Positions 1,439 through 62,808 of a DNA stretch of 64,000 nt are shown here, piece after piece. Made by a program: the position numbers and the translations under genes. Every line of letters begins with the position of its first letter. Positions within the stretch are counted from its first letter, which is position 1. Below the pieces are notes generated by a model. That model made no database searches and was not told the origin of the DNA. It saw only the letters and a program-made list of their open reading frames with translations. The DNA is from Nocardioides nitrophenolicus (GTDB lineage Bacteria > Actinomycetota > Actinomycetes > Propionibacteriales > Nocardioidaceae), in contig NZ_JAFBBY010000001.1 of the NCBI RefSeq assembly GCF_016907515.1, positions 5,642,001 through 5,706,000 on the forward strand. Direction: 5' to 3'.

Positions 1439-1828
1439 ATGACCCACCCGTCGAGCCTCGCCGTCCAGGTACGCCGGGTCGAGGCGGCCCTCCGCGCCGA
1501 GCTCCAGCCGATCCTCGACGAGCACGACCTGACGCTGGAACACTGGCGGATCCTCGCCGTCCTCGCCCACCAGCCGGGGCTGGGAATGACCTCGGTCGCC
1601 ACGGCGGCCGTCGTACCCGCCGCGAGTCTCGCCCGGCATGTCGACAAGCTGGTCGAGCGCGGCCTGCTGATCCGCCGGATCGACCCCGCGGACAAGCGGC
1701 GGGTGGTGGTGGCCCTGTCGCCCCGGGGGGAGGAGTACGCCGGGAGGCTGCGGGAGGTCGAGGGGGCGGTGGTGGACGTGGTGGGTGGGTTCGGTCGGTT
1801 TCGGGATTGGGCAGAGACTGCAGGTTGA
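1439..1828 (+). CDS. MarR-family transcriptional regulator
   Basis: A 129-residue winged-helix repressor-type protein. Residues 30-95 carry the MarR core: LTLEHWRILAVLAHQPGLGM, then VATAAVVPAASLARHVDKLV and the wing IRRIDPADKRRVVVALSPRG. ATG 1439 follows a strong GAGG ribosome site (about 1427-1433). The target is unknown, but the divergent AmiC-like gene is the obvious candidate. The last residues (FRDWAETAG) are encoded by a degenerate copy of the dispersed 22-bp element (1801-1822), so the C-terminus looks replaced or extended by the repeat. Confidence 0.9.
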   Translation: MTHPSSLAVQVRRVEAALRAELQPILDEHDLTLEHWRILAVLAHQPGLGMTSVATAAVVPAASLARHVDKLVERGLLIRRIDPADKRRVVVALSPRGEEYAGRLREVEGAVVDVVGGFGRFRDWAETAG

Positions 1829-1904
1829 GGGGCTGAATTGTTGCGGTTTGGGACCAAACCGCATGCGTGAGGGCTCGTGAACTGCGGTTTGGGACCAAAC
1901 CGCA
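1801..1904 (+). repeat. Dispersed palindromic element, unit 1 (three elements at 41-bp steps)
   Basis: A degenerate partner at 1801-1822 is followed by perfect 22-bp palindromes at 1842-1863 and 1883-1904. Each palindrome has arms TGCGGTTTGG and CCAAACCGCA around a 2-base centre (GA here). Steps are exactly 41 bp. The unit lies between the convergent MarR and helY genes, and the degenerate element lies inside the end of the MarR frame. Confidence 0.95.
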
Positions 1905-1994
1905 ACTGACGAACCGGGCCCGTCAGCTGCGCCAGTCGCCAGCAGCCCAGGCAGACGGGTCGGCGGCCCGGGCGACTGCTCCTGCCCAACCGGG

Positions 1995-2070
1995 TGGTCA
2001 GACCAGTCCACGTTTGGGCAGAGACCACACCTCAGAGCGCCGAAAAGTTGCGGTTTGGGACCAAACCGCA
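1995..2070 (+). repeat. Dispersed palindromic element, unit 2 (full-length 76-bp form)
   Basis: Layout: TGGTCAGACCA (1995-2005), 2 bp, degenerate partner containing GTTTGGGCAGAGACC (2008-2029), 19-bp linker, perfect palindrome (2049-2070). The outer GTT/AAC bases extend the palindrome to 26 bp. Same spacing as units 7 and 8 at 51.7-52 kb. Confidence 0.95.
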
Positions 2071-2115
2071 ACGAGGAGGACCGGACGAACCACGCCACGC
2101 CGGCAACGCCCCAGG

Positions 2116-4896
2116 TCACCCGGTCGCCACGATCCCCCTCCGCAGCAGCTTGACCAGCTGCCGCGCCGTGTCTCGGACCGGCGTACCGGCGGCCGCGTCG
2201 GCGATCTGGCCGGCGAAGTCGATGAGCTGCTTCATCTGGCGCACGAAGTCGCCGGCGGTCTGGTCGTTGCGGGTGATGATCTCGTCGAGCTCCTGCCCCT
2301 CGGCCCAGCGCCAGGCGGTCCAGGCGAACCCGGCGTCCGGCTTGCGCAGGAAGTCGAGCCGGTGTTCGCGCTCGAGCCGCTCGAGATCGCCCCACAGGCG
2401 GGTCATCGCGTCGATGGTGACCTGGATGGCGCCGCCGGGGACGTTGGCCGGGCCGTCCTCGGGCCGCCGTGCCTCGTAGACCAGGGCCGACAGCACCGCG
2501 CCGAGCTGCGGCGCGGACAGGTCGTCCCACAGACCCGTCCTCAGCGACTCGGCGGCGACGAGGTCGAGCTCGGAGTAGATGCGCATCAGGCCGCGCCCGC
2601 GCTCGGTGACCTCGTCCTCACGCAGGTAGTCGAGCGCCTCGAGGACCTCGCAGACCCGGTCGAAGGTGCGCGCGACGGTGTTGGTACGACGCTCGATCCG
2701 CGCGGCGAGGAGCTCGGAGTCCTTCTGCAGCTTGGCGTGCCGTTCGGCCCAGCGGGCGTGGTCCTCGCGCTCCGCGCAGCCGTGGCAGGGGTGCTCGCGG
2801 ACCTGGGCCCGCAGCGCCTGGATCTCCCGCGCCACGCCCTCGTCGACGGGGCCGCGCTCGGCCTTGGGCCGGGTGACCGACAGCGGCAGCGCGCGGACGG
2901 CCTCGCGGACCTGCTGGGCGATGTCCTTGCGCTGGTGCGGGTTGCGGGCGTCGACCCGCTTCGGCAGCTTGATCCGGGCGACCGGCTCGACCGGGGTCGG
3001 GAAGTCCATCATCGCCAGCCGGCGGCCCTGCCGCTCGGCGGTGATGACGAGCGGGCGGTGGCCGTGCTCGGACAGACCGGGGTCGACCACGACGGCAGGC
3101 CCGGCGAACTTCCCCACGGGTACGACGATCACGTCGCCCGGCTGAAGTCGTTCGAGCGAGGCGAGCGCCTCGTCGCGGCGGTCCTGCCGGCGTACCTTGC
3201 TCGACTCCTTCTCCAGCTCGGAGATCCGCCGGCGCAGGCCGGCGTACTCCATGAAGTCGCCGAGGTGGCACTGCGCCGCCTCGGCGTACCCGGCGAGCGC
3301 GTCCTCGGCCTTGCGCAGCTGGCGGGCGAGCCCGACGACCGCCCGGTCGGCCTGGAACTGCGCGAAGGACTGCTCGAGCAGCTCGCGTGCCTGGTGCCGG
3401 CCGAAGGAGTGCACGAGGTTGACCGCCATGTTGTACGACGGCCGGAAGCTCGAGCGCAGGGGGTAGGTCCGGGTCGAGGCGAGACCGGCGAGCTCGCGCG
3501 GGTTCATCCCCGGCTGCCAGAGGACCACCGCGTGCCCCTCGACGTCGAGGCCCCGCCGCCCGGCCCGACCGGTCAGCTGGGTGTACTCGCCCGGCGTGAT
3601 GTCGGCGTGGGTCTCGCCGTTCCACTTGCTCAGCTTCTCCAGCACGACGGTGCGTGCCGGCATGTTGATGCCGAGCGCGAGGGTCTCGGTCGCGAAGACG
3701 ATCTTGATCAGCCCGCGCAGGTACAGCTCCTCGACGCACTCCTTGAACGCCGGCAGCATCCCGGCGTGGTGGGCGGCGACGCCGCGCGACGCGGCGTCGA
3801 GGAAGTCGTGGTACCCGAGCACGTGGAGGTCGGCGGACGGCAGCGCGCCGAGCGTGCTCTCGACGTACGCGATCACCTCGTCGCGCTCCTCGGGCGAGGT
3901 GAGCCGGAGGTTGGCGTCGAGGCACTGCTGGACCGCGGCGTCACAGCCGGCGCGGCTGAAGATGAAGTCGATCGCCGGGAGCAGGTTGTCGCGGCGCAGC
4001 CGTTCCACCACGTCGAGGCGCCCGGGGATCCAGATCCGGCGGCCGTTGCCGACATTGCGGCTGCCGGGGCCGCCCTGCCGGGAGCCGCGGGGCTGCCGGT
4101 GGCCCTTGAGCCGGCTCGACGCCCAGTCGTCGCGGGCCAGCTTCATCAGCTCGTCGTTGACCGGCGCGCCCTCGCGGACGAAGCCGGCCGCCGCGTCCAC
4201 GTCGGTCGAGGCGAACAGGTCGAGCAGCCGTCGACCGACCATGACGTGCTGGAACAGGGGCACCGGGCGGCGCTCGGCGACGATGGTGCGGGTCGAGCCG
4301 CGCACCGTCTCCAGCCACTCGCCGAACTCCTCGGCGTTCGACACCGTCGCCGAGAGCGAGATCACCGACACCGACTCGGGCAGGTGGATGATCACCTCCT
4401 CCCAGACCGCGCCGCGGGAGCGGTCCGCGAGGTAGTGCACCTCGTCCATCACCACGAAGCCGAGGCCGACCAGGGTCCGGGAGCGCGCGTAGAGCATGTT
4501 GCGCAGCACCTCGGTCGTCATCACGACCACCGGCGCCTCGCCGTTGATCGTGGTGTCGCCGGTCAGCAGGCCGACCCTGTCGGCACCGTACCGCTCGACC
4601 AGGTCGTGGTACTTCTGGTTCGACAGCGCCTTGATCGGCGTCGTGTAGAAGCACTTGCGCTCGGTCTCCAGCGCGAGGTGGACCGCGAACTCCCCCACCA
4701 CGGTCTTGCCCGCGCCGGTCGGGGCCGCGACCAGCACCCCGTCGCCGTCCTCGACCGCCTTGCAGCCCTCGACCTGGAAGTCGTCCAGGTCGAACGCGAA
4801 GCCGGCCGCGAAGTCGCGGAAGACGGGGTGCTCCTTGTGCTTGCGGTACGACGCGTAGCGCTGCGCCGGGCTGAGGTCGTGGTCGTGGTCGCTCAT
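2116..4896 (-). CDS. helY: Ski2/Mtr4-like DEAD/DEAH-box RNA helicase HelY
   Basis: A 926-residue superfamily 2 helicase matching actinobacterial HelY (about 900 residues). Walker A APTGAGKT lies at residues 58-65, followed by the DEVHYL motif II, the SAT motif III, and motif VI QLTGRAGRRG. The C-terminal half is the long HelY extension with a DSHCT-like end. The expected role is ATP-dependent RNA unwinding or processing. ATG 4896-4894 overlaps the stop of the upstream lipid-kinase gene (ATGA), indicating translational coupling; the open frame further upstream is a shadow of that gene. The 3' end faces the repeat cluster at 1.8-2.07 kb. Confidence 0.93.
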   Translation of the reverse strand: MSDHDHDLSPAQRYASYRKHKEHPVFRDFAAGFAFDLDDFQVEGCKAVEDGDGVLVAAPTGAGKTVVGEFAVHLALETERKCFYTTPIKALSNQKYHDLVERYGADRVGLLTGDTTINGEAPVVVMTTEVLRNMLYARSRTLVGLGFVVMDEVHYLADRSRGAVWEEVIIHLPESVSVISLSATVSNAEEFGEWLETVRGSTRTIVAERRPVPLFQHVMVGRRLLDLFASTDVDAAAGFVREGAPVNDELMKLARDDWASSRLKGHRQPRGSRQGGPGSRNVGNGRRIWIPGRLDVVERLRRDNLLPAIDFIFSRAGCDAAVQQCLDANLRLTSPEERDEVIAYVESTLGALPSADLHVLGYHDFLDAASRGVAAHHAGMLPAFKECVEELYLRGLIKIVFATETLALGINMPARTVVLEKLSKWNGETHADITPGEYTQLTGRAGRRGLDVEGHAVVLWQPGMNPRELAGLASTRTYPLRSSFRPSYNMAVNLVHSFGRHQARELLEQSFAQFQADRAVVGLARQLRKAEDALAGYAEAAQCHLGDFMEYAGLRRRISELEKESSKVRRQDRRDEALASLERLQPGDVIVVPVGKFAGPAVVVDPGLSEHGHRPLVITAERQGRRLAMMDFPTPVEPVARIKLPKRVDARNPHQRKDIAQQVREAVRALPLSVTRPKAERGPVDEGVAREIQALRAQVREHPCHGCAEREDHARWAERHAKLQKDSELLAARIERRTNTVARTFDRVCEVLEALDYLREDEVTERGRGLMRIYSELDLVAAESLRTGLWDDLSAPQLGAVLSALVYEARRPEDGPANVPGGAIQVTIDAMTRLWGDLERLEREHRLDFLRKPDAGFAWTAWRWAEGQELDEIITRNDQTAGDFVRQMKQLIDFAGQIADAAAGTPVRDTARQLVKLLRRGIVATG

Positions 4897-5762
4897 GCGA
4901 TCACCTGCAGCGACCCGGGCACGCACTCGACGGTCAACGGCAGCGGGCCGAACCGCTCGCCGTCGGCGTACCCGACGATGCCGGCGCTGGCGACGGTCAC
5001 CCGGCGCACCCGGTGACGCTCGTACTGCGGATGGGTCACGTGACTCCCGTCGAAGAGCTTGGGGAAGGTCCGCAGCAGCTCGACCCGGCTGAGCGGCTTG
5101 ATCAGGACGACGTCGAGCAGGCCGTCGTCGAGCTCGGCACCGTGGGTGATCCGGAGCCCGCCGCCGAAGGACGGGCCGTTGCCGACGGCGACCAGCATCG
5201 CCTCCACCTGGCGCTCGGCGCCGTCGAGGTCGAGCAGGTAGCGCAACGGCCGAAAGGTGCGCAGCTCGGCGAGCGTCGCGAGGTTGTAGCGCAGCTGCCC
5301 CTTCGGCCAGCGCATCCGGTTGGCCCGCTCGTTGACGACCGCGTCGAAGCCCGCGGCGAGCACGCCGCCGAAGTAGCGCTCGCCGATCCGGGCCAGGTCG
5401 ACCGTACGCCGGGTGCCGTGCAGGATCCGGACGGCGGCCGCGGCGCCGTCGCCGCGCGGCAGGTCGAAGTAGCGGGCGAAGTCGTTGCCGGTGCCGGCCG
5501 GGAGGATGCCGAGCGGCACGTCGGTGCCGGCGACCGCCTGGATCCCGAGGTTGACCATCCCGTCGCCCCCGCAGACCACCAGCGCGTCCGGCTCCTCGGC
5601 CGCCGCGACCCGGGCCAGGTCGAGCGCCTCGTCGGCGTCGCGTCCGGTGAGGGCCGTCGTACGCCACCCGGCGCCGTGGAACCGGGGCAGCGCCTCGTCG
5701 CGCATGCGGGCGCCCCGCCCCTTCCCCGAGGTGGGGTTGGTCAGGATGATCGCGCGGGGCAC
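4893..5762 (-). CDS. Diacylglycerol kinase-like lipid kinase
   Basis: A 289-residue protein of the DAGK catalytic-domain (YegS/DgkB) family. It opens with the nucleotide-binding strand RAIILTNPTSGKG and has the family motif VVCGGDGMVN followed by LPAGTGNDFARYF. It probably phosphorylates a membrane diacylglycerol or related lipid; the substrate is not evident. I chose GTG 5762-5760, 10 bp after the tatC stop. An ATG 54 bp further upstream would overlap tatC by 44 bp and add residues lying before the conserved core. It is coupled to helY by a 4-bp overlap. Confidence 0.85.
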   Translation of the reverse strand: MPRAIILTNPTSGKGRGARMRDEALPRFHGAGWRTTALTGRDADEALDLARVAAAEEPDALVVCGGDGMVNLGIQAVAGTDVPLGILPAGTGNDFARYFDLPRGDGAAAAVRILHGTRRTVDLARIGERYFGGVLAAGFDAVVNERANRMRWPKGQLRYNLATLAELRTFRPLRYLLDLDGAERQVEAMLVAVGNGPSFGGGLRITHGAELDDGLLDVVLIKPLSRVELLRTFPKLFDGSHVTHPQYERHRVRRVTVASAGIVGYADGERFGPLPLTVECVPGSLQVIA

Positions 5763-5772
5763 GGGGTGAAGG

Positions 5773-6615
5773 CTACAGATCGAGGGGGCTGGCCTCGTCG
5801 GGCGAGAGCCCCGCATTGATCGCCCTGCCGGCTCGGCGGCGGTCGTTGAGGCGCGCGATCACCTCGGAGACGAGGAAGAGCACGACCATCGGCGCGGCCA
5901 TGAAGGTCATCGTGAACGGGTCGCCCGACGGCGTCATGACGGCGGCGAAGATGAAGGTGCCGACGATCATCCACGGCCGGTGGGCGCCGAGGGTCTTGCC
6001 CTTGAGGATGCCGGCCATGTTGAGCAGCACCACGAAGACCGGGATCTCGAAGGCGATGCCGAAGCCGAGCAGGGTGCGGCTGAAGAAGGTGAGGTAGTCG
6101 TCGAAGTCGACCAGGTTGGTGAGCCCGTCCGGGTTGAGCCCGATCAGGATCTCCAGGCCCTTCGGCAGGGTGACGTAGCCCAGGAGCACGCCGACGAGGA
6201 ACAGCGGGCCCGCGATGATGGCGAAGATGCCGGTCCAGCGCTTCTCGCTGGGGTGCAGGCCGGGGACGATGAACGCCCAGATCTGGTAGAGCCACACCGG
6301 GCTCGCCGCGATCAGCCCGGCGAGCCCACACAGCTTGAGGTGGAGCAGGAAGCCGGCGGCCGGACCCGAGCTAGTGCCGAGGCTGGTGCCCTCCGGCAGG
6401 CTGTCCTGGGCCGAGCGGTAGGGCTCCCAGACCAGGTCGAAGAGCGGGTCGAAGAAGAACAGTCCGACGATGAAGGCCGCGAGGACGGCGAAGCCGGCCT
6501 TGAGGATGCGTGCGCGCAGCTCGCGCAGGTGGTCGGACAGCGCCATCCGCCCGTCGTCACCGACGGGATGGACGGGCTTTCCGATGAAGAGCTTGAGAAG
6601 ACCCGTGAACGCCAA
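5773..6615 (-). CDS. tatC: Twin-arginine translocase subunit TatC
   Basis: A 280-residue polytopic membrane protein. Six hydrophobic segments, the N-terminal ALSDHLRELRARILKAG and the FGIAFEIPVFVVLL segment are characteristic of TatC, the receptor core for folded twin-arginine substrates. The reading starts with TTG 6615-6613, 2 bp after the tatA stop. A conventional ATG at 6546-6544 (MALSDHLREL) is the alternative and would shorten it by 23 residues. It lies directly downstream of tatA on the same strand, as in many actinomycetes that carry these genes beside pafBC. Confidence 0.93.
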   Translation of the reverse strand: MAFTGLLKLFIGKPVHPVGDDGRMALSDHLRELRARILKAGFAVLAAFIVGLFFFDPLFDLVWEPYRSAQDSLPEGTSLGTSSGPAAGFLLHLKLCGLAGLIAASPVWLYQIWAFIVPGLHPSEKRWTGIFAIIAGPLFLVGVLLGYVTLPKGLEILIGLNPDGLTNLVDFDDYLTFFSRTLLGFGIAFEIPVFVVLLNMAGILKGKTLGAHRPWMIVGTFIFAAVMTPSGDPFTMTFMAAPMVVLFLVSEVIARLNDRRRAGRAINAGLSPDEASPLDL

Positions 6616-6617
6616 GG

Positions 6618-6881
6618 TCAGGCGTTGTTCTCGCGACGCTCGTCGACGATCTCGCCCTCGGCGATGTCGTCGGCGGCGGGCAGCTCACCGGTCGACGTCG
6701 TGGGCTTCTTCTTGTCGTCCTCGTCGTCGCGCAGACCCTTCGTCTCGGCCTTGAAGATCCGCAGCGCCTGGCCCGTGCCGCGGGCGAGGTCGGGGAGCTT
6801 GGCGGCGCCGAAGACGAGCACCACGATCGCCAGGATGACGAGCCACTCGGCGCCCTGGGGCATTCCGATCAGGGGAAACAT
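6618..6881 (-). CDS. tatA: Twin-arginine translocase subunit TatA
   Basis: An 87-residue protein with one N-terminal transmembrane helix (EWLVILAIVVLVFGAAKLPD), the FGxxKLPD hinge, an amphipathic helix (LARGTGQALRIFKAETKG) and an acidic, Lys-rich tail. This is the pore-forming TatA/E type. ATG 6881 is used; a second ATG at 6863 (MPQGAEW) is equally plausible because neither has a strong ribosome site. It is cotranscribed with tatC, separated by 2 bp. Confidence 0.92.
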   Translation of the reverse strand: MFPLIGMPQGAEWLVILAIVVLVFGAAKLPDLARGTGQALRIFKAETKGLRDDEDDKKKPTTSTGELPAADDIAEGEIVDERRENNA

Positions 6882-6940
6882 CGGCGGGGACCAACTCTCG
6901 ATCGTCGGGTTGTGCTGTCGTCCACCATCCTACGCCGCCC

Positions 6941-7948
6941 TCAGCGATACAGGCTGAGGGTCTCCTGTGCGCGAGCGGTGAAAGTCTCGGTGAACTCCTG
7001 AGGACTGACCACGCTCGCGTGCGGCGCCAGCCGCAGCAGCAGCCGGGTCAACCACCGACGGTCCACCACCACCAGGTCGACGTCGGCCGAGCCGTCCTCG
7101 TGGACCCGGATGTCGCGCATCGGGTAGTAGTCCGTCGCCCACCGGGCCGCCGGCTCCAGGTGCAGCGTGACGACCGTCGCGTCGGGGACCGCGTCGTCGG
7201 TGAACAGCCCGTCACTCAGGTCCCGGGGCGCCCGGACCGGCGTACTGCGCTCCGTCGGCAGCAGCTCCGCCTTCGTGATCCGGTCCAGCCGGAACAGCCG
7301 GTCTCCCCCGGCGCGATGGCAGTGGGCGTCGAGATAGGAGAACACGCCGTGCGAGACCACGCCGTACGGGTCCACCACCCGCTCCGACTCCTCGTCGCGG
7401 GACGGCACGAAGTACAGCAGCCGCAGCTGGCGTCCGGTCGCGACCGCCTCGTCGACCAGCGCGGTGAGCTGGGCGGCCACGACCTGCTGGGCGTCGCGCG
7501 GCGACGGGGTGATCTCGACGTGCGGCGCACCGGCCGCCGCCTCCAGCTTCGCCAGCACGCGATCGACGAGCTCAGGATGGGCTCCCGCGGCCGCGGTGTC
7601 GCGGAGCATCCGCAGCGCCACGATCATCGCCGACGCCTCCGTCGCGCTCAGCCGCAGCGGCCTGGCCAGGTAGTCGGCGTTCTCCACCCGGATCACGCCC
7701 TCGCTGACCGGGCTGCCCTCCTCGGTGACGATCGCATCGAGGTCGACGTCGATCAGGTCGTCCGGCATGCCGCCCGGCAGACCGCACATGAACAGCACCC
7801 GGAGGTCCTGCACGACCTGCTTGGGCGTCGTACCGAGGAGCTGGGCCGCCTCCTCGAGGCGGACGCCGTCGCGGTGGTGGAGGAACGGGACCAGGGTGAG
7901 CAGGCGGGCCACCTGGTCGCGGGCGCCTGGCGCCGGTGTTCGCCTCAC
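6941..7948 (-). CDS. pafC: WYL-domain transcriptional regulator PafC
   Basis: A 335-residue HTH plus WYL-domain regulator. The N-terminal HTH reads DQVARLLTLVPFLHHRDGVR. The WYL-type region is RLLYFVPSRDEESERVVDPY followed by SYLDAHCHRAGG. PafC forms the PafBC complex, a RecA-independent DNA-damage activator in mycobacteria. Start GTG 7948-7946 follows AGGGGG and begins right at the family N-terminus. The longer open frame upstream runs through two copies of the palindromic repeat and is spurious. A repeat unit sits between pafB and pafC, which are usually tightly coupled. Confidence 0.9.
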   Translation of the reverse strand: MRRTPAPGARDQVARLLTLVPFLHHRDGVRLEEAAQLLGTTPKQVVQDLRVLFMCGLPGGMPDDLIDVDLDAIVTEEGSPVSEGVIRVENADYLARPLRLSATEASAMIVALRMLRDTAAAGAHPELVDRVLAKLEAAAGAPHVEITPSPRDAQQVVAAQLTALVDEAVATGRQLRLLYFVPSRDEESERVVDPYGVVSHGVFSYLDAHCHRAGGDRLFRLDRITKAELLPTERSTPVRAPRDLSDGLFTDDAVPDATVVTLHLEPAARWATDYYPMRDIRVHEDGSADVDLVVVDRRWLTRLLLRLAPHASVVSPQEFTETFTARAQETLSLYR

Positions 7949-7966
7949 CGAAGGGCCCCCTGACGT

Positions 7967-8029
7967 TGCGGTTTGGTCCCAAACCGCAACATTCCTCGGC
8001 GTGTCGTTGCGGTTTGGGACCAAACCGCA
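7967..8029. repeat. Dispersed palindromic element, unit 3 (inverted pair)
   Basis: Perfect palindromes at 7967-7988 (TC centre) and 8008-8029 (GA centre), offset 41 bp. Both have outer GTT/AAC extensions. The unit occupies most of the pafB-pafC gap on the minus strand. Confidence 0.95.
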
Positions 8030-8042
8030 ACGCCCAGCCCGC

Positions 8043-9005
8043 TCACGAGACCACCTCCGTGAGCCGCGCGACGACCTGCTCCCGGACCTCGACCGGCTCG
8101 ACCAGCACCACATCCGGCCCGTGCGACAGCACCTCGTCGGCCAGCCCCTGGCGCGGGCGGACCAGGACGACCCGGTCCCACCCCGTGCGGTCGTCGGGGC
8201 CGTCGACGCCGACGTCCACCCGCTCGGCCACGCGGCGCAGTCCGAGCCCGGCACCCTCGCGGACGAGCAGCACCGCCGTCGTGGTCGGGATCGGCGGGGC
8301 CATCCGCCGGGCGATCTCACGGACGTCGGTCTCCGGCGGTACGTCGTAGGCCCCCGGCAGGCCGACCAGCTCGACCTCGCCCTGGACCCGCGAGAGCCGG
8401 AAGACCCGCTCCGCGGCCCGGTCGGCGTCGTAGCCCACCAGGTACCACCGTCCCGAGTAGCGCACCACGCCCCACGGCTGCACCCGGCGGCGCATCGGTG
8501 CGTCGGCGTCGGGGCGCTTGTAGACGAACTCGATCGCGGTGCGCTCGCATACCGCGATCCAGCACTTCTCGAACGCCGGCTCTTCCGCGGTGAGGAGTGG
8601 CCGGGCGATCTGGAGCGCGTCGAGGTCGACGTCGATGCCGGCCGCGGTGAGCTTGCGGACGGCGTCGGTGGTCGCCTGGGCCATGGTGGCGTGCTGCCAC
8701 ACCCGGGAGGCGATGCCGACCACGGCGGCCTCCTCCGGCGTCAACTCGACGTCGGGCAGGGCGAACGCCTCGGGCGGGATCCGGTACCCGACCTCGTCCT
8801 CGAAGAGCGGGTCGATCGTCGCGACCTCGATGGGTACGCCGAGGCTGCGCAGCTCCTCCTTGTCGCGCTCGAACATCTTCTCGAAGGCGTCCGGGCGCGA
8901 GTCCGGGTACAGCAGCTCGCGGATCCGCTCCTTGGCGATCGGCCGTCGCTGCACCAGGAGCATGATCAGCAGGTTGAGGAGACGCTCACTCTTCGGTGCT
9001 GGCAT
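8043..9005 (-). CDS. pafB: WYL-domain transcriptional regulator PafB
   Basis: A 320-residue regulator with an N-terminal winged helix (KSERLLNLLIMLLVQRRPIA) and a clear WYL domain (GRWYLVGYDADRAAERVFRL). It is the usual partner of PafC in the DNA-damage-responsive PafBC activator and lies downstream of pafA. ATG 9005-9003 (MPAPKSERLLN) is the likely start; it overlaps the FKBP gene by 20 bp. The frame extends 25 codons further, but that stretch is Arg/Pro-rich and reads within the FKBP gene. Confidence 0.92.
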   Translation of the reverse strand: MPAPKSERLLNLLIMLLVQRRPIAKERIRELLYPDSRPDAFEKMFERDKEELRSLGVPIEVATIDPLFEDEVGYRIPPEAFALPDVELTPEEAAVVGIASRVWQHATMAQATTDAVRKLTAAGIDVDLDALQIARPLLTAEEPAFEKCWIAVCERTAIEFVYKRPDADAPMRRRVQPWGVVRYSGRWYLVGYDADRAAERVFRLSRVQGEVELVGLPGAYDVPPETDVREIARRMAPPIPTTTAVLLVREGAGLGLRRVAERVDVGVDGPDDRTGWDRVVLVRPRQGLADEVLSHGPDVVLVEPVEVREQVVARLTEVVS

Positions 9006-10110
9006 CCGTGCTCGGCTCGGCGCTCGGGTCGGTCGCGCCATCGGTCGGGGCCGCCCCGTCGGTCGGAGCCGCGTCGGCACTGGGCTCCGGTTCCGGGGTC
9101 GGCGGCGTGTCGGCGGCGTCGAGGATGTCGACGACGAAGTAGAGCGTCGAGTTCGCCGGGATGTCCTCGCCCTGGGCCTTGTCGCCGTAGCCCAGCTTCG
9201 GCGGGATCTCGATCATCACCCGGCTGCCGACCGGAAGGCCGACCAGCGCTTTCGACCAGCCCTTGACGACGCTCGCGGACTTGCCGCCGACGACGGCCTC
9301 GAGACCGGTGCCCTTCGAGTAGTTCTCGTCGAACGGCTTGTCGGCGCCCGGAAGCTGGCCGAGGTAGTTGACCAGGATGGTCTGGCCCTTGGCGACGACG
9401 GGGCCGGTGCCCTTGGTCAGGGTGGCGACCTCGAGGTCGCCGCTCGGCTTCGGCACGCCCTTGAAGTCGAGGCCGGCGGGCAGCCCGGCGTCCTCGACGA
9501 TCGTCGGCGCCCAGGCCGGAGCGGACTCCTCGGTGCCTTCGGGGCCGGCGATCTGGGCGATGTCCGCGACGAAGAGCAGACCGTCCTCGTTGCCGATGTC
9601 GAGTCCCGCGAGCAGGCTCGCGGCCTGGCTGCCGAGGTAGCCACCGAACGCCACGTCGCTGCCGACGGTGACCGCGATCCGGCTGCCGACCTTCTGGCCG
9701 GCCTCGATCTGGTCGGCGAAGCCGAGGGAGAGCAGGTCGGTGAGGGTCTGCGGCTCCTTCTCGGTGCCGACCTTGACCAGGGTGCTGAGCGACTCGGCGG
9801 CGTAGCTGTCGAAGGGAACCTTGTGGGTCCAGCCGTCGGCGAGGGTGAACTCGACCCGGACGACGTCGCCCTTCTTCAGCGTCGCGCCGTCACCCTCGGT
9901 GAGCACCTTCGTGACCGGCTTCTTCGCCGTCATCACCGACTTCCAGTCCAGCTTCGGGGACTCGCCGACGGGACCACTGACCGTGACGGCGTCGAGGCCC
10001 TTGGCCTGGTCGGAGTCCGACCCGCCGCACGCCGCGAGCGCGAGGCTCGCCGGGAGCAGGGTCGTCAGGAGGAGCATCGAGGGACGTCGCAGGCGCATCA
10101 GCACGCGCAA
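8986..10110 (-). CDS. FKBP-type peptidyl-prolyl isomerase lipoprotein
   Basis: A 374-residue exported lipoprotein. The signal peptide ends in the lipobox LALAAC-GGS (Cys about 28). Two FKBP-like domains follow, at roughly residues 70-190 (GDVVRVEFTLADGWTHKVPFD) and 225-335 (GQTILVNYLGQLPGADKPFD, with GSRVMIEIPPKLGYGDKAQG), then an acidic Ala/Pro/Thr/Ser tail. It probably assists proline-limited folding outside the membrane. FKBP genes commonly sit between pafA and pafB in actinomycetes. Only the second domain keeps the full canonical pattern; the first looks divergent. Confidence 0.9.
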   Translation of the reverse strand: MRVLMRLRRPSMLLLTTLLPASLALAACGGSDSDQAKGLDAVTVSGPVGESPKLDWKSVMTAKKPVTKVLTEGDGATLKKGDVVRVEFTLADGWTHKVPFDSYAAESLSTLVKVGTEKEPQTLTDLLSLGFADQIEAGQKVGSRIAVTVGSDVAFGGYLGSQAASLLAGLDIGNEDGLLFVADIAQIAGPEGTEESAPAWAPTIVEDAGLPAGLDFKGVPKPSGDLEVATLTKGTGPVVAKGQTILVNYLGQLPGADKPFDENYSKGTGLEAVVGGKSASVVKGWSKALVGLPVGSRVMIEIPPKLGYGDKAQGEDIPANSTLYFVVDILDAADTPPTPEPEPSADAAPTDGAAPTDGATDPSAEPSTDASTEE

Positions 10111-10137
10111 ACCCTACCGAGTGCCCGAAGGCTTGTG

Positions 10138-11499
10138 TCACATGCCGTCGATCAGGCGCTGCACCCGCTCGTCGTACGCCCGGAACGGGTCCTTGCACAG
10201 CACCGTGCGCTGAGCCTGGTCGTTGAGCTTGAGGTGCACCCAGTCGACGGTGAAGTCGCGCCGCCGCTCCTGCGCCCGGCGGATGAACTCCCCCCGGAGC
10301 CGGGCCCGGGTGTTCTGTGGCGGCACGGACTTGGCCTCGAAGATCTTCAGGTCGCTGCTCACCCGGGCGACGGCCCCGCGCTTCTCGAGCAGGTAGTAGA
10401 GGCCACGGCCGCGGTGGATGTCGTGGTACGCCAGGTCGAGCTGGGCCACGCGCGGGTGGCTGAGCGGGATGCCGTGCTTGGCGCGGTAGCGGTCGATCAG
10501 CTTCCACTTGATCACCCAGTCGATCTCGCGGTCGACCAGGCTGAGGTCGTCGGACTCCACGGCCTTCAGCCCGCGCTCCCACAGGTCGAGGGCCCGCTCG
10601 ATGATCGGCGTGGAGATGCCGCGCCGGTCCACGAAGTCGCGGGCCTTGGCGAGGTACTCCCCCTGGATGTCCAGCGCGCTGGCCTCCCGGCCGTTGGCGA
10701 GGCGGATCTTGCGGCGGCCGGTGACGTCGTGGGAGATCTCGCGGATCGCGCGGATCGGGTTCTCCATCGTGAGGTCGCGCATCACCACGTCCTCCTCGAT
10801 CATCCGCAGCACCAGGTCGCAGCTCGCGACCTTGAGCATCGTCGTCGTCTCGCTCATGTTCGAGTCGCCGACGATGACGTGCAGCCGGCGGTACTTCTCG
10901 GCGTCGGCGTGCGGCTCGTCGCGGGTGTTGATGATCGGCCGGCTCCGGGTGGTGGCGCTGCTCACGCCCTCCCAGATGTGCTCGGCGCGCTGGCTCACGG
11001 AGTAGCTCGTGCCGCGCGGGGTCTGGGTGACCTTGCCGGCCCCGACGATGATCTGCCGGGTCACCAGGAACGGGATCAGTACGTCGGCGAGCCGGGAGAA
11101 CTCGCCGGCGCGGGACACCAGGTAGTTCTCGTGGCAGCCGTAGGAGTTGCCGGCCGAGTCGGTGTTGTTCTTGAACAGGTAGATCTCACCGGCGATCCCC
11201 TCGTCGTGGAGGCGCTGCTCGGCGTCCAGCAGCAGGCCCTCGAGGACCCGCTCCCCCGCCTTGTCGTGGGTGACGAGCTCGGTCACGTCGTCGCACTCGG
11301 GCGTGGCGTACTCCGGGTGGCTGCCGACGTCGAGGTAGAGCCGGGCGCCGTTGCGGAGGAAGACGTTGCTGGAGCGTCCCCAGCTCACCACCTTGCGGAA
11401 CAGGTAGCGCGCGACCTCGTCGGGGCTGAGCCGTCGCTGTCCGCGAAACGTGCACGTGACGCCGTACTCGTTCTCGATCCCGAAGATCCGACGGTCCAT
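10138..11499 (-). CDS. pafA: Pup-protein ligase PafA
   Basis: A 453-residue carboxylate-amine ligase of the glutamine-synthetase-like fold that joins the C-terminal Glu of Pup to substrate lysines. The ATP/Mg-binding FGIENEYG lies at residues 6-13. The catalytic-base region [11 protein letters not shown] places Asp57 where PafA has its essential Asp. [18 protein letters not shown] and [18 protein letters not shown] are shared with Dop. The long Dop-specific loop is absent, which separates it from the dop gene at 16.1 kb. It is divergent from the Rieske oxidoreductase with a gap under 50 bp. Confidence 0.97.
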
Positions 11500-11543
11500 G
11501 TACGCACATTACTGCGGTGGTGCACATCGGGTACCGGACTCGC

Positions 11544-12968
11544 ATGGACGCGCCGAACGAGTTCGCTCCCCGCCCCTCCGCCAGCGCCCCGGTGTGGTTC
11601 GACCGGCCCCGTCTTGAGCCCTTCCCGCCGTTGGCCGGGCGGGCGTCGTACGACGTCGTGGTGGTGGGCGGCGGGCTGTGCGGACTCCTCGTCGCGCTGC
11701 TCCTGGCGCGGGGCGGGCGGTCGGTGGTGGTACTGGAGGCACGGCGGATCGGCGCCGGCACGTCGGGGCACACCACCGGCAAGGTCAGCCTGCTGCAGGG
11801 CACCAAGCTGAGCCGGGTGCTGCGGCGCAATCCGCCGTCCGTGGCCCGGGCCTACGTCGAGGCGGGCCGCGAGGGCCAGGCCTGGCTGCGCCGGTTCTGT
11901 CACGAGCACGACGTCGCCGTGGAGACGCGGCACGCGACGACGTACGCGACGACCCGGGTCGGGCTCCTGCGCGCCGAGGGCGAGCTGGCGGCCGCGCGCA
12001 CCACCGGGCTCGGGGTGCGGTGGAAGCGGTCGAGCGAGCTGCCGTTCCGCGTGCTCGGAGCGGTGCGCCTCGACGGGCAGTACCAGCTCGACCCGCTGCA
12101 GCTGCTCGACGCCGTACGCGACGCCGCGCTCGCCGAAGGCGTGGTGGTCCACGAGGACACCCGGATGGTCGGGGTCGAGCACAGAGGGGACGGTGTCGTG
12201 GTGCGTACCGATGCCGGGGAGGTCACCGCGGGCACGGCCGTCGTGGCGACCAACCAGCCCACCCTGCTGCGCGGGGCCTTCTTCGCACGGCTGCAGCCGC
12301 AGCGTTCGTACGCCGCCACCCTCGCCGCCGACTGGACGCCCCGCGGCATGCACCTCTCCGCCGACCTCCAGACCCGCTCCCTCCGCTCGGTGCGGGCCGG
12401 GGTCGGCGAGGAGCTGCTGATGATCGGCGGCTCCGGCCACGTCACCGGACGCGGGTCGGCGACCGAGCGGCTGGACCGGCTGCTCGGGTGGGCCGCCACC
12501 ACCTTCCCCGGAGCGCAGGTGCGGCACGTCTGGTCGGCGCAGGACCAGTCACCGGTCGACGGGCTGCCGTACGTCGGGCCCGTCGTCCCGGGCGACCACC
12601 GGATCCAGGTCGTTACCGGCCTCGACAAGTGGGGCCTCAGCACCGCCCCCGCCGCGGCGCTGCTCCTCGCCGCGTCCCTCCTCGGCGGCAGCGAGCCAGC
12701 GTGGGGGCGGGCGTTGCGGACCTGGGCGCCCCGGGAGGTGCTCGCCGCGGGTCGGGCCGCCGTCGTCAACGCCGAAGTGGGCTGGCGGATGGCGTGCGGG
12801 CACGCCCGTCGGGTGCTCCGGGCCGACAAGGCGCCGTTGTGCCCGCACCTCGGTGGGGTGCTGGTGTGGAATGGCGCCGAGGAGTCGTGGGACTGCCCGC
12901 TGCACGGGTCCCGGTTCGGGTCTGACGGGGCTGTTCTCGAGGGGCCGGCGACTCGGGCGCTGGAGTAA
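11544..12968 (+). CDS. FAD-dependent oxidoreductase with C-terminal Rieske [2Fe-2S] domain
   Basis: A 474-residue flavoprotein of the DAO/GlpD-like fold. The Rossmann motif is VVVVGGGLCGLLVALLLARG, with the GTSGHTTGKVSLLQG substrate-side motif. A C-terminal Rieske domain contains C-x-H (LCPHLGG) and C-x2-H (DCPLHGSRF), which would ligate a 2Fe-2S cluster. This matches the YhfW-like group of unknown substrate. ATG 11544 is preferred over GTG 11517, which would leave only 17 bp to divergent pafA. It ends 11 bp before a palindromic repeat and faces the DUF559-like gene. Confidence 0.85.
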   Translation: MDAPNEFAPRPSASAPVWFDRPRLEPFPPLAGRASYDVVVVGGGLCGLLVALLLARGGRSVVVLEARRIGAGTSGHTTGKVSLLQGTKLSRVLRRNPPSVARAYVEAGREGQAWLRRFCHEHDVAVETRHATTYATTRVGLLRAEGELAAARTTGLGVRWKRSSELPFRVLGAVRLDGQYQLDPLQLLDAVRDAALAEGVVVHEDTRMVGVEHRGDGVVVRTDAGEVTAGTAVVATNQPTLLRGAFFARLQPQRSYAATLAADWTPRGMHLSADLQTRSLRSVRAGVGEELLMIGGSGHVTGRGSATERLDRLLGWAATTFPGAQVRHVWSAQDQSPVDGLPYVGPVVPGDHRIQVVTGLDKWGLSTAPAAALLLAASLLGGSEPAWGRALRTWAPREVLAAGRAAVVNAEVGWRMACGHARRVLRADKAPLCPHLGGVLVWNGAEESWDCPLHGSRFGSDGAVLEGPATRALE

Positions 12969-12979
12969 CTGCACGGCTC

Positions 12980-13042
12980 TGCGGTTTGGTCCCAAACCGC
13001 ACGAATTCAGGCCGGTGTCATGCAGATCGTGCCCAAACGACG
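12980..13042 (-). repeat. Dispersed palindromic element, unit 4
   Basis: Perfect palindrome at 12980-13001 and degenerate partner at 13021-13042 (minus-strand reading contains GTTTGGGCACGATCTGCA), offset 41 bp. The partner is inside the 3' end of the DUF559-like gene and encodes its last residues and stop. Confidence 0.92.
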
Positions 13043-13980
13043 GGGTCGGTCGAGCGGTACCACCGGTTCATCACCCGGTCGCGTCCCTTCGCCGAGTAGA
13101 ACGAGTCGTCAATGAGCGCTCGCCACCTTCGCAGACGTTCCGCCTGATGAGGACGGTTGAGTGCGCGGTCGAGCTCGTGCATCACCGTCGCGGCGTGGTT
13201 GAGCAGGTCGTCGAGCGTGAACCCGCGGCGCCTGTAGCGAGTACTGGCGATCGCGCGCTCACGGCGTAGGTCGCGCTTGTGAACGGCCGACTCGCGGTGG
13301 ACCGCGCCGTCGTACTCGTGCAGGTCGAGCGTGCCCAGTACCTGCAGATCCGCCCGACAGACCCAGCGTCCGTGATCGTCGTGTACGTCGATCTGTGAGG
13401 CCGTGGGGATCTCCAGCACATCGTGGAACAGCCGCAGGATCGTCTCTCCGGCGGATTCGGCGCGACGATCATGCACCTCCCAGACCCGGCTCAGGCGACG
13501 AGTGCCAGGTCGCTTTGTCTCGAGGATCTCCTGGATGGCGTCGTCGTCGATGTGGCCGAGACGGGCGGCCGAGTCGACCATGATCGTGAGGTCGAGATCG
13601 CCAAGGTCACGGGCTGCTCTGAGCAGAATCTCGGCGGGCGCGTCGACAGGAAGTCCGTGCGCCGTCGATGGCGTCGAGTCATGGGTCAACCGCGAGCAGA
13701 TGAGACCGGGGCGCCGAGGTCGACACTGGCCACGTACGGCGGCGAAGTGGGGAACCTGCTCCGGCAGGGCGGGCAGCTTCCATCCGAGCAGCCGCGCCGC
13801 AGTGACGTGGGTGAAGACGGCGCCGGGCGGCAGGACGAGGAGGAGAGCGCCCAGGTCGCGGAGGAGGTTCTCCCAGTCGCCGATCTCTGGTGTCTCGATG
13901 CGATACAGGCCGTGCGCGACACGCTGATGGCCCGCGGCGCGTACCTCGCCGCGGATCGCGCCGTCTGCGCCCATCTGCAT
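13018..13980 (-). CDS. AbiEi-like/DUF559-type predicted nuclease protein
   Basis: A 320-residue protein with the layout common in actinobacterial DUF559/VSR-like proteins. The N-terminal winged-helix-like part has RVAHGLYRI and FTHVTAARLLGWKLP, as in AbiEi antitoxin-like domains. The C-terminal endonuclease-fold core has SAGETILRLF, VCRADLQVLGTLDLHEYDG and KRDLRRERAI. The Glu, Asp and Glu of these motifs are candidate metal-binding residues. Its role is unknown; relatives are usually lone defence-like genes. Its base composition is lower than its neighbours (36 of 60 G+C in one line counted by hand), suggesting transfer. Its C-terminus VVWARSA lies in a repeat element. Confidence 0.65.
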   Translation of the reverse strand: MQMGADGAIRGEVRAAGHQRVAHGLYRIETPEIGDWENLLRDLGALLLVLPPGAVFTHVTAARLLGWKLPALPEQVPHFAAVRGQCRPRRPGLICSRLTHDSTPSTAHGLPVDAPAEILLRAARDLGDLDLTIMVDSAARLGHIDDDAIQEILETKRPGTRRLSRVWEVHDRRAESAGETILRLFHDVLEIPTASQIDVHDDHGRWVCRADLQVLGTLDLHEYDGAVHRESAVHKRDLRRERAIASTRYRRRGFTLDDLLNHAATVMHELDRALNRPHQAERLRRWRALIDDSFYSAKGRDRVMNRWYRSTDPVVWARSA

Positions 13981-14065
13981 GTCGACAGCGTCGGTGAGGA
14001 GGACGCCTCACTCAAGCGGCAGTTGCTGGCCTGTGGATACCGCTCTGACGGCCGGTTGCCAGCTG

Positions 14066-14128
14066 ACGCCATTGGGCAGAAACCGCAGCCAGCGGGCCGG
14101 AATTGTTGCGGTTTGGGACCAAACCGCA
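14066..14128 (+). repeat. Dispersed palindromic element, unit 5
   Basis: Degenerate partner at 14066-14087 (TTGGGCAGAAACCGCA) and perfect palindrome at 14107-14128, offset 41 bp, joined by a linker ending GGAATTGT. It lies between the DUF559-like gene and the end of prcA. Confidence 0.95.
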
Positions 14129-14148
14129 ACAACCCGAGCCGCCAACCG

Positions 14149-15066
14149 CTAGAGCGGGGGCGCGACAGGCGGCTCCCCAGAGGGCGGCTCACCACTAGTG
14201 GGGTTCTCCAGCGGCGGTACGTCGCCGGAGACCTGGTCGGTCGGGTCGCCAGGATCGTCCGACCCGGCACCCCCGGACGACTCGCCACCCCCAGACGACC
14301 CCGACCCTCCGGACACCCCGCCAGCCTGCACCCCGTCGTCGGGCAGCGGCGCGGCGTGCTCGGGGGTGCCGCGGGGGCCGAGGAGCTCGGCGACGCGGGC
14401 GGGGCGGAGGCGGGAGAACTTCCGCGGCTGCACCCGGGTCCGGTCGAGGACCGCTACCTCGAGGTCCTCGACGGGGATCACCCGGTCGCCGTCGCCGGTG
14501 TGACCGAGTGCGGCCACGGCGACTGCGAGGGCCGAGGCCAGGGAGGCGCCGGCGGCGTAGTGGGCGGACAGGTACGTCGAGACCGTCTCGCTGTCGCCGC
14601 CCATGACGGCGAAGCCGTGCTCGTCGGCGACCCGGCCCTCGTAGGTGAGGCGGTAGATCTGGTCCTCGTCCGCGCGCGAGCCGACCTCGGCGACGAAGAT
14701 CTCGACCTCGTAGGGCTTCTCGCCGCCGGAGGAGAAGATGGTGCCGAGGGTCTGGGCGTAGGCGTTGGCGAGGCCGCGGCCGGTGACGTCGCGGCGGTCG
14801 TACGCGTAGCCGCGCATGTCGGCGAGCCGGACGCCGGCGATGCGGAGGTTCTCGAACTCGTTGTAGCGGCCGACGGCGGCGAAGGCGAGGCGGTCGTAGA
14901 GCTCGGAGACCTTGTGGAGGGCCTGGGAGGGGTTCTCGGTGACGAGCAGGACGCCGTCGGCGTACTGCACCGCCGCGAGGGACCGGCCGCGGGCGATGCC
15001 CTTGCGGGCGAAGTCGGCCCGGTCCTTCATCAGCTGCTCGGGCGAGACGTAGAAGGGGGTGCTCAT
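14149..15066 (-). CDS. prcA: 20S proteasome alpha subunit PrcA
   Basis: A 305-residue alpha-type subunit forming the outer gating rings of the core particle. The N-terminus [20 protein letters not shown] is the actinobacterial gate sequence, followed by [20 protein letters not shown]. There is no N-terminal nucleophile Thr, as expected for alpha. After about residue 230 it carries a Gly/Ser/Pro-rich tail of about 70 residues, which makes it longer than the roughly 250-residue mycobacterial protein. The gene begins 1 bp after the prcB stop. The usual next gene, pafA, is displaced by two unrelated genes and two repeat units. Confidence 0.97.
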
Positions 15067-15067
15067 C

Positions 15068-15922
15068 TCAGGCCTCCTCCCCCGCGCCGGGCAGGGGTGC
15101 CAGTGGACCGTCGGGGCGGCCCATCCGGGCGCCCACCACCTGGTCGGCGAGGGCGCCGATGGTGGCCTCGTCGAGGGCGACCGCGCCGTCGGCGGTGACG
15201 ACCCACACGATCGGGAAGATCCGGCGGGTCAGGTCGGGGCCGCCGGTGGCGGAGTCGTCGTCGGCGGCGTCGTAGAGCGCCTGCAGGCAGACCCGGACGG
15301 CGTCGTCGGACGACAGGTCGTCGCGCCAGAGCTTCTTCAGCGCGCCGCGGGCGAACAGCGAGCCCGAGCCGACGGTGAAGAAGGACGCCTCCTCGTGGCG
15401 GCCGCCGGTGACGTCGTAGCCGAAGATCCGGCCGGTGCCGCTGTCGAGGTCGAAGCCGGCGAACATGGGGACGACGGCGAGGCCCTGCATGGCCATGCCG
15501 AGGTTGGCGCGGATCAGCGCGGAGAGCCGGTTGGCCTTGCCGTCGAGGGAGAGGATCGAGCCTTCGATCTTCTCGTAGTGCTCGAGCTCGACCTGGAACA
15601 GACGCACCATCTCGACGGCGAGCCCGGCGGTGCCGGCGATGCCGACCACGGAGTACTCGTCGGCCGGGAAGACCTTCTGGATGTCGCGCTGGGCGATCAC
15701 GTTGCCCATGGTGGCGCGGCGGTCGCCGGCCATCACCAGGCCGCCGGGGAAGGTCACCGCGACGATGGTCGTGCCGTGGGGCGCGAGGTCGCCGGCGCCG
15801 GTCGCACCGGCGGGCAGCGACCGGCGCGCCGGCAGCAGGTCAGGGGCGTTCTCGGCGAGGAAGTCGCTGAAGGAGGAGGTGCCCGGGCGCAGGAAAGCGC
15901 CCGGGATGCGCGCGTCGCTCAT
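15068..15922 (-). CDS. prcB: 20S proteasome beta subunit PrcB
   Basis: A 284-residue catalytic subunit. A 50-residue propeptide ends in DLAPHG. Processing before [11 protein letters not shown] would expose Thr51 as the N-terminal nucleophile. GDRRATMGN and the later [10 protein letters not shown] region are typical. The acidic, Pro-rich end is short. It lies between pup (6 bp upstream) and prcA (1 bp downstream), so one transcript should provide equal subunit amounts. Confidence 0.97.
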
Positions 15923-15928
15923 CGGGGA

Positions 15929-16126: not shown

Positions 16127-16143
16127 GACGCCAGCCTAGCCAC

Positions 16144-38799: not shown

Positions 38800-38862
38800 T
38801 GCGGTTTGGTCCCAAACCGCATGTTTCGGGCCGGAATTGTTGCGGTTTGGGACCAAACCGCA
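38800..38862. repeat. Dispersed palindromic element, unit 6 (inverted pair)
   Basis: Perfect palindromes at 38800-38821 (TC centre) and 38841-38862 (GA centre), offset 41 bp, with a linker ending GGAATTGT. The unit lies between the end of trmI and the start of arc on the minus strand. Confidence 0.95.
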
Positions 38863-51728: not shown

Positions 51729-51804
51729 TGCGGTTTGGTCCCAAACCGCAACTTTTGGCGCCCTCCAGCTGCGGTTTCCGCCCAAACCCGAGGTGGTCTG
51801 ACCA
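51729..51804 (-). repeat. Dispersed palindromic element, unit 7 (full-length 76-bp form)
   Basis: Perfect palindrome at 51729-51750, 19-bp linker, degenerate partner TGCGGTTTCCGCCCAAAC at 51770-51791, 2 bp, then TGGTCTGACCA (51794-51804). Spacing is identical to units 2 and 8, in the opposite orientation to unit 2. Confidence 0.95.
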
Positions 51805-51882: not shown

Positions 51883-51958
51883 TGCGGTTTGGTCCCAAAC
51901 CGCAACATTCGGCGCCCTCGACCTGCAGTTTCCGCCCAAACGTGAACTGGTCAGACCA
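51883..51958 (-). repeat. Dispersed palindromic element, unit 8 (full-length 76-bp form)
   Basis: Perfect palindrome at 51883-51904, 19-bp linker, degenerate partner TGCAGTTTCCGCCCAAAC at 51924-51945, 2 bp, then TGGTCAGACCA (51948-51958). Same orientation as unit 7; the linker shares GGCGCCCTC with it. Confidence 0.95.
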
Positions 51959-61461: not shown

Positions 61462-61557
61462 GAGGGGCCATCCTAGGGACACTCCGGTGACGACCGTCAT
61501 CGGCGCGCCCGGCGTGCCCGGCGCGTCCCGCTCGGCCGGGCCGATACCTTGTGCCCC

Positions 61558-62511
61558 ATGCAGCAGCGGTACGTCGGCGCCAGCGGCCTCCAGGTCTCGC
61601 GGCTCGCCCTCGGCACGATGACGTGGGGCAAGGACACCGACGAGCACGAGGCGCGGGACCAGCTGACCGCCTTCGTCGAGGCCGGCGGTACGACGATCGA
61701 CACCGCCGCCGGCTACACCGACGGCCGCTCCGAGGCCCTCCTCGGCTCCCTGATCGGCGACGTCGTCCGCCGCGACGACCTGGTCCTGGCGACCAAGGCC
61801 GGCATCTGGCGGCGCGGCACCGACCGGCTCACCGACACCTCGCGCGGCGCCATGCTGCGCGGCCTCGACACCTCGCTGAAGCGCCTCGGCACCGACCACG
61901 TCGACCTGTGGCAGGTCCACATCTGGAGCGACGACGTCCCGCTCGAGGAGACCCTGGGCGCGCTCGACCTCGCGGTGAGCAGCGGCCGGGCGACGTACGT
62001 CGGGATCTCGAACTTCAACGGCTGGCAGACCGCACGGGCGGTGACCCTCCAGGAGGCCGCCGCCGGGCGGGCGCGGATCGCGTCCACCCAGATGGAGTAC
62101 TCCCTGGTCAACCGCCGCATCGAGCGCGAGGTGCTGCCCGCGATCGAGGCGCTCGGCCTCGGCCTGTTCCCCTGGTCACCACTGGGGCGCGGCGTACTGA
62201 CCGGCAAGTACCGCACCGGCACCCCGTCGGACTCCCGCGCCGCGTCGCCCGTCTTCGCCGGCTTCGTCGACGCCTACCTCGACGACCACAGCCGCGGCAT
62301 CGTCGAAGCCGTCGCCCGCGCCGCCGACGGCCTCGGCTGGACCCCGCTCGAAGTCGCCCTGGTCTGGGTGCGCGACTCCCCCGGCGTCACCGCGCCGGTC
62401 GTCGGCGCCCGGACCGCCGCCCAGCTCGCCGGGGCGCTCGGCTCGGAGGCGAAGACGTTGCCACCCGAGATCCGGGCCGCGCTCGACGACGTCTCCGGAG
62501 GTGCCGCATGA
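61558..62511 (+). CDS. Aldo/keto reductase
   Basis: A 317-residue TIM-barrel NADPH oxidoreductase. Catalytic residues are visible: Asp and Tyr in TIDTAAGYTDGRSE, Lys in LATKAGIWRRG, His in LWQVHIWSDDVP. GISNFNGWQTARAV and FPWSPLGRGVLTGKYRTGTP are typical. The physiological substrate is unknown. ATG 61558 is chosen; TTG 61549 would add three residues. It is coupled to the DUF5703 gene by ATGA. Confidence 0.92.
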   Translation: MQQRYVGASGLQVSRLALGTMTWGKDTDEHEARDQLTAFVEAGGTTIDTAAGYTDGRSEALLGSLIGDVVRRDDLVLATKAGIWRRGTDRLTDTSRGAMLRGLDTSLKRLGTDHVDLWQVHIWSDDVPLEETLGALDLAVSSGRATYVGISNFNGWQTARAVTLQEAAAGRARIASTQMEYSLVNRRIEREVLPAIEALGLGLFPWSPLGRGVLTGKYRTGTPSDSRAASPVFAGFVDAYLDDHSRGIVEAVARAADGLGWTPLEVALVWVRDSPGVTAPVVGARTAAQLAGALGSEAKTLPPEIRAALDDVSGGAA

Positions 62512-62741
62512 ACGTCTCCCTGCTCCGACCCGGCGTGATGCGCGGCCTGGGTCGCGGCGTCGAGTGGGAGTTCGAGCGAGTCACCTTCGACCGCGGGTTC
62601 TCGCGGAACATGGTCGCCAAGCTGCTCGTCGAGCGGGCCGAGCATGGTGGGTGGGAGCTCGATCGGGTGCAGATCGGGCCGGATGGGCGGCGGCGGGTCG
62701 TGCTGCGGCGGAAGATCATCCGGGCTGTGCGGACTGCGTGA
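62508..62741 (+). CDS. DUF5703 family small protein
   Basis: A 77-residue protein with the DUF5703 pattern: VEWEFERVTFDRGFSRNMVA then HGGWELDRVQIGPDGRRRVV and a basic LRRKIIR end. It is widespread and uncharacterised in actinomycetes. It overlaps the aldo/keto reductase by 4 bp. Its stop is followed 4 bp later by a palindromic repeat unit. Confidence 0.85.
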   Translation: MNVSLLRPGVMRGLGRGVEWEFERVTFDRGFSRNMVAKLLVERAEHGGWELDRVQIGPDGRRRVVLRRKIIRAVRTA

Positions 62742-62745
62742 CTGT

Positions 62746-62808
62746 TGCGGTTTGGTCCCAAACCGCAACAATTCGGGCCCTGAACACACGGTTTGGTCCC
62801 AAACCGCA
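62746..62808 (-). repeat. Dispersed palindromic element, unit 9
   Basis: Perfect palindrome at 62746-62767 and a copy with two mismatches at 62787-62808, offset 41 bp. A TGGTCAGACCA element lies further out at 62835-62845 and overlaps the stop of the M20 gene. The unit lies between convergent genes. Confidence 0.92.

Follow-up and report, generated by a model that had tools for sequence, protein, structure and literature searches.

The window analysed here is a stretch of 64,000 nucleotides of the Nocardioides nitrophenolicus genome (positions 5,642,001-5,706,000 of a single contig of 5,815,017 bases). Between 5773 and 39758, counted from the first base of the window, it contains a Pup-proteasome gene region (Pup ligase, proteasome subunit, proteasomal ATPase, PafC-type WYL regulators and TatC). 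Dispersed through the window are nine units of a paired palindromic element, and one gene of the region, here called gene 13, is flanked by a palindrome on each side (Table 1). Genes were called with a simple script of our own, and their edges are approximate.

Twelve perfect copies of the palindrome TGCGGTTTGG(GA/TC)CCAAACCGCA occur in the window, together with one copy with two mismatches, just where the original prediction had placed them; zero are expected from 100 dinucleotide shuffles of the window, and the palindromes are real and non-random. The six degenerate partners that had been proposed (at 1801, 2008, 13021, 14066, 51770 and 51924) are also present, with zero to three mismatches to the core then given, the weakest being 13021 with three. 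Neighbouring elements are offset by 41 bp in 10 out of 10 cases in the window and in 152 out of 161 close pairs genus-wide, the remainder being offset by 40 (two), 42 (six) or 43 bp (one). To call the offset invariant was therefore slightly too strong, as nine of the 161 genus pairs depart from it. In its GA orientation a palindrome has its partner 41 bp upstream, so that a perfect TC-GA pair forms an inverted repeat; there are also pairs whose centres are equal, direct by their central GA/TC. The three units of a 76-bp long form ending on one side in TGGTC-W-GACCA were found as predicted, with a fourth copy of TGGTCAGACCA at 62835. This form, which has both a TGCRGTYTCTGCCCAATC-type partner and TGGTC-W-GACCA in addition, recurs in two other genomes (G034 and G014). 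The N. nitrophenolicus genome has 45 sites at two or fewer mismatches and none for a reversed-pattern control; the palindrome columns carry 1.5-2.0 bits of information, and the 19-bp linker mostly less than 0.8 bit, with a weak GGGCC.

Palindrome matches were found in 47 out of 196 Nocardioides genomes and, in a smaller sample from other families of the order, in 0 out of 21; exact matches occurred in at least 120 named stretches, and the 120 retrieved are labelled Nocardioides or Pimelobacter. Viral contigs yielded no exact palindrome, and Rfam at gathering scores no match in the window. Orthologs of gene 13 (E<=1e-60) are present in 58 of the 196 genomes (both genome tallies were counted by hand), and palindromes were found in 40 of these 58 versus 7 of the 138 genomes without an ortholog, in a test that ignores phylogeny. 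Put the other way, 40 of the 47 palindrome-bearing genomes carry the ortholog. Of the 18 genomes with an ortholog and no hit, four were rescanned using a variant pattern, which revealed sites in every one. Among 48 ortholog loci, palindromes stand on both sides of the gene in 25, on one side in eight and on neither in 15, and at 19 loci of distant paralogs (35-43% identity; L307-L326 except L324) there was no consistent flanking palindrome. One genome (G077) lacks gene 13 at the usual location and retains 17 sites, so that the units either outlast the gene or do without it. We consider the association with gene 13 to be the strong part of the case. At the place where G077 lacks the gene, a palindrome altered in its core (TTCGG/CCGAA) is still found (L302:17346).

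The chromosomal position of the units points to the same gene. Positions relative to dnaA and dif were compared in 12 genomes in which the chromosome is one contig with at least 14 sites; four further one-contig genomes with one to six sites each (G082, G109, G139 and G188) were omitted, the position of gene 13 in G077 is the place where it is missing, and GC skew gave too weak a signal to locate the terminus. Eleven of the 12 show an excess of units near dif. In 11 genomes gene 13 lies 35-61 kb from dif. Measured from gene 13, the 97 units found within 150 kb of it have their median at +15 kb, in the direction opposite to dif, which itself lies at -35 to -61 kb. With the units flanking gene 13 removed, 111 out of 198 units fall in the 5% of the genome that surrounds gene 13; the corresponding figures are 90 for dif and 7 for dnaA. 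Terminus-proximal clustering is explained better by gene 13 than by dif.

In Nocardioides sp. TF02-7 (G195), gene 13 is located 2.09 Mb from dif among unrelated neighbours. Of the 75 proteins encoded in its stretches retrieved at 2.155-2.275 Mb, one, that of gene 13, has a match in the terminus set of N. nitrophenolicus, compared with 39 out of 72 in G024 and 30 out of 50 in G076; a stretch sampled at 4.10 Mb, nearer the dif of TF02-7, gives 5 out of 16. Around the moved gene lie 15 of 20 units, and near dif 0 of 20 (zero-mismatch sites, of which 41 were used among the 46 of 81 sites listed). The assembly is rated 70% complete, so a mis-assembly is possible. Gene 13 is also outside the proteasome region in G026, with TGGCG-type lineage-variant palindromes on both sides, and the 15 sites of that genome are spread over six contigs, so clustering is not demonstrated there. 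In Nocardioides sp. Root190 (L036), a perfect pair at 2640-2702 lies ~80 bp from a dif-like core at 2783-2797.

Across 11 hand-picked representative variants of the palindrome, stem pairs 1, 3, 4, 6 and 9 are of more than one Watson-Crick type, indicating that both arms change together; one stem mismatch each is kept in G024, the G036 type and the G140 type, and G024 also has an end wobble. At two orthologous gaps, N. nitrophenolicus, G076 and, at one of the gaps, G024 mostly carry the variant specific to their own genome, which in G076 is present at 3 out of 4 and 4 out of 4 sites there and at 11 out of 15 sites overall. The third gap compared, which follows the proteasome-subunit gene, is an exception to this for G076 (0 out of 3) and G024. 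Such partly concerted variation is consistent with copying or conversion, or with co-evolution between the palindromes and a protein that binds them.

Gene position was examined for 453 distinct sites pooled from retrieved loci in the genus, ~91% of which is coding: 130 sites lie in convergent gaps, 262 in tandem gaps, 11 in divergent gaps, 32 in called open reading frames and 18 at locus edges. Among the 403 gap sites, 32% are in convergent gaps versus 14% expected from gap bases; the corresponding values are 65% versus 62% for tandem and 3% versus 24% for divergent gaps. For 219 of the 262 tandem sites the nearer edge is the 3' end of the upstream gene. Within the window it is true that no unit is mid-gene, since partners reach only into the ends of genes, but the claim fails in the genus, for the 32 sites inside called reading frames. 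The WYL-domain genes 9 and 8, which a unit separates in the window, overlap without an intervening unit in G024, G072, G076 and G036. The idea of a catabolic regulon was dropped, since the neighbourhood scanned consists of housekeeping genes from the proteasome region, and the sites lie at 3' ends. In five genomes a fused precorrin methylase carries a palindrome or pair in frame between its two domains, with a linker protein sequence FGTK (L174:5774-5836, which is 5,063,773 in N. nitrophenolicus, and L166, L042, L065 and L070; Pfam was run on four of the five), and the L047 site is within an unrelated protein.

The product of gene 13 has a predicted fold in which an AbiEi-like domain is joined to a Vsr/homing-type endonuclease domain. 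Acidic and histidine residues of the predicted nuclease-like domain are invariant, and the model has the second-domain fold of AbiEi. The neighbours of gene 13 in the window are not AbiEii-type toxins, being a DAO/Rieske oxidoreductase and the proteasome subunit. Plasmid and phage collections held no match to gene 13, and a sequence search of solved structures gave none for its product. A literature search, with most subscription journals outside it, returned among the matches listed no paper that deals with these palindromes or with a fusion of AbiEi and DUF559.

In the parts of the literature compared here, REP (repetitive extragenic palindromic) elements or REPINs with a REP-associated tyrosine transposase (RAYT) are described as inverted palindrome doublets, dispersed and mostly downstream of genes, and REPtrons as a single-copy gene flanked by palindromes and correlated with the presence of the repeat (PMC8266576, PMC3116915, PMC3733652). 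The main text of a 2025 REP survey makes no mention of Nocardioides (PMC12306157). Inverted doublets, a 3'-end bias, dispersed copies and a flanked single gene are all found in Nocardioides, and the REP/BIME-like hairpin pair of the original prediction fits well in its doublets, its location at gene ends and its dispersal. The system differs from REPtrons in having tens rather than hundreds of copies, in their concentration near the gene, in the near-fixed 41-bp offset between paired palindromes, in the predicted Vsr/homing fold of its candidate enzyme, and in that N. nitrophenolicus has no Y1/HuH match and its palindromes no GTAG/CGTC tag. It would work like a REPtron and is not filed as one because neither the Y1 enzyme nor the tag was found. 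The predicted nuclease domain also departs from the homing endonuclease I-Bth0305I and the repair endonuclease Vsr in being fused to an AbiEi-like domain, in a gene flanked by dispersed palindromes.

We suggest, tentatively and a little short of an even chance, that the units, dispersed inverted pairs of palindromes, make up a REP/REPIN-like family that has a dedicated protein encoded by gene 13. It is possible, though we hold this with still less confidence, that the system is REPtron-like but of independent origin, the fused AbiEi-like/Vsr-like nuclease, and not a HuH transposase, spreading and homogenising the pairs near its own gene. We propose that the gene-13 protein would recognise an inverted pair through either of its domains, that the Vsr-type domain would nick or cut there, and that repair or re-integration would copy the unit elsewhere, for the most part close to the source gene, and would convert old copies to the current variant. 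Insertions would persist mainly just downstream of genes, where we propose they do least harm and may serve as bidirectional hairpins. Such nuclease-driven spreading is the mechanism that we rank most likely, binding, cleavage and mobilisation all being postulated steps. The AbiEi winged helix, at one time considered as the reader of the palindrome, had to be withdrawn in that role after the domain borders were checked, and our confidence was lowered to the tentative level given above because of it. No winged helix was seen in the gene-13 model, which before residue 35 has only two short low-confidence strands; the PADLOC match begins at profile position 37, and nine codons upstream of the gene-13 start there is a stop.

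The pairs might instead be binding sites only, by which the gene-13 protein or another protein regulates gene 13 and organises or silences the neighbourhood, kept by selection without any spreading. There is something to be said for this: AbiEi and Rv2827c are described as each binding its own promoter at paired inverted repeats of 23 bp (PMC7319586), the 19-bp linker keeps its length while its sequence is weakly constrained, and orthologous sites persist across divergent species. A protein bound on one DNA face, as first suggested, is likewise consistent with the kept 41-bp spacing and the varying linker, the helical phasing of spacings longer than 60 bp being suggestive only (n=27, many periods scanned). 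However, the scarcity of sites in divergent gaps and their preference for upstream 3' ends are unlike a promoter-operator pattern, the nuclease-like residues are invariant, and the winged helix is missing from the model. Unlike the sites of AbiEi or Rv2827c, each 22-bp element is a palindrome in its own right, with 19 bp between partners and copies that are dispersed, and gene 13 has an extra predicted nuclease-like domain and no adjacent AbiEii-type toxin. A rare triple with 42+41 spacing is found at both 0.23 and 5.47 Mb in N. nitrophenolicus, as expected if whole units are copied. On balance we regard binding without spreading as unlikely. Less probable again are bidirectional transcription terminators, or stabilisers of mRNA 3' ends, with no dedicated protein. 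They would account for the bias to 3' ends and convergent gaps, for the palindromy preserved across lineages by paired changes, and for strong hairpins: perfect pairs fold into one long hairpin of about -46 to -47 kcal/mol as RNA (-28.9 kcal/mol for the one perfect pair computed as DNA), and single palindromes give -12.7 (kcal/mol as RNA) and -9.2. But a stem would suffice for a terminator, and a near-invariant 22-bp sequence at 41-bp spacing is unneeded; two units with a degenerate partner, folded whole as RNA, do barely better than shuffles (z -1.35 and -0.91); the two hits for a hairpin with a U-tract in window positions 1-20000, which cover five of the nine units, are both away from units; and the link to gene 13 is left unexplained.

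Palindromic sites over-represented around the terminus are known from matS/MatP, and the Nocardioides units share this property in 11 of the 12 placed genomes. The Nocardioides sites differ in being paired and in centring on gene 13 and not on dif, also where gene 13 has moved; both this offset and TF02-7 weaken the idea of terminus-organising sites, which we hold to be very improbable. Classical REP elements mobilised by a Y1/HuH RAYT are hardly credible, in spite of inverted palindrome doublets at gene ends. The search for a RAYT gene with PF01797 gave no match in N. nitrophenolicus and one in the 196 genus genomes (G172, which is palindrome-free), and no conserved GTAG/CGTC-type tag lies beside the 45 N. 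nitrophenolicus palindromes. Of the transposase acting in trans that had been suggested, what is left is a different, nuclease-like gene, flanked by the palindromes and co-occurring with them.

REP-type repeats are common, and the enzyme class linked to them in the parts of the literature compared is the HuH RAYT. If a dedicated gene-13 protein does run these pairs, palindrome pairs would be associated with a second class of enzyme. This would be a candidate answer for orphan repeats such as the CGTC family, which is described as without a dedicated transposase (PMC3733652), and dispersed bacterial palindromes could then be run by unrelated enzyme families. TF02-7, where the gene has moved and repeats surround its new position, offers an unusual natural test of local spreading.

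Table 1. Palindrome units and gene 13 in the window.
Feature	Position	Strand	Composition	Setting
Triple unit	1801..1904		degenerate 1801, perfect 1842 and 1883	MarR-type gene end, convergent gap with DEAD/DSHCT helicase gene
Complete 76-bp unit	1995..2070		TGGTCAGACCA, degenerate partner 2008, perfect palindrome 2049-2070	
Perfect inverted pair	7967..8029			between two WYL-domain genes (9 and 8)
Gene-13 3'-side unit	12980..13042		perfect 12980-13001, weak degenerate 13021-13042	degenerate partner overlaps gene-13 end
Gene 13, candidate cognate protein, 320 aa	13018..13980	-	predicted AbiEi-like ~34-171 and Vsr/homing-endonuclease-like ~173-276	
Gene-13 5'-side unit	14066..14128		degenerate 14066, perfect 14107-14128	downstream of proteasome-subunit gene at 14149
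Perfect inverted pair	38800..38862			downstream of TrmI-like gene, upstream of proteasomal-ATPase gene
Complete 76-bp unit	51729..51804			convergent gap, PAC2-family gene / class-I tRNA-synthetase-like gene
Second complete 76-bp unit	51883..51958		tandem duplicate of 51729..51804 at 154 bp (77% over 110 bp)	
Perfect and 2-mismatch pair	62746..62808			convergent gap ahead of M20-peptidase gene

Other arrangements of palindromes were also observed. TF02-7 has arrays of five (L038:6858-7249) and four (L056:5870-6168) palindromes with a period of 92-93 bp, as well as a second repeated palindrome, TGAGGTTTCCCCGG...CCGGGGAAACCTCA, unlike the first in sequence (L223:14938, L224:1832 and L224:10535). 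In N. nitrophenolicus, one divergent gap at 5,501,487-5,501,799 (L177:5488-5800) holds three single-palindrome units, 145-146 bp apart.
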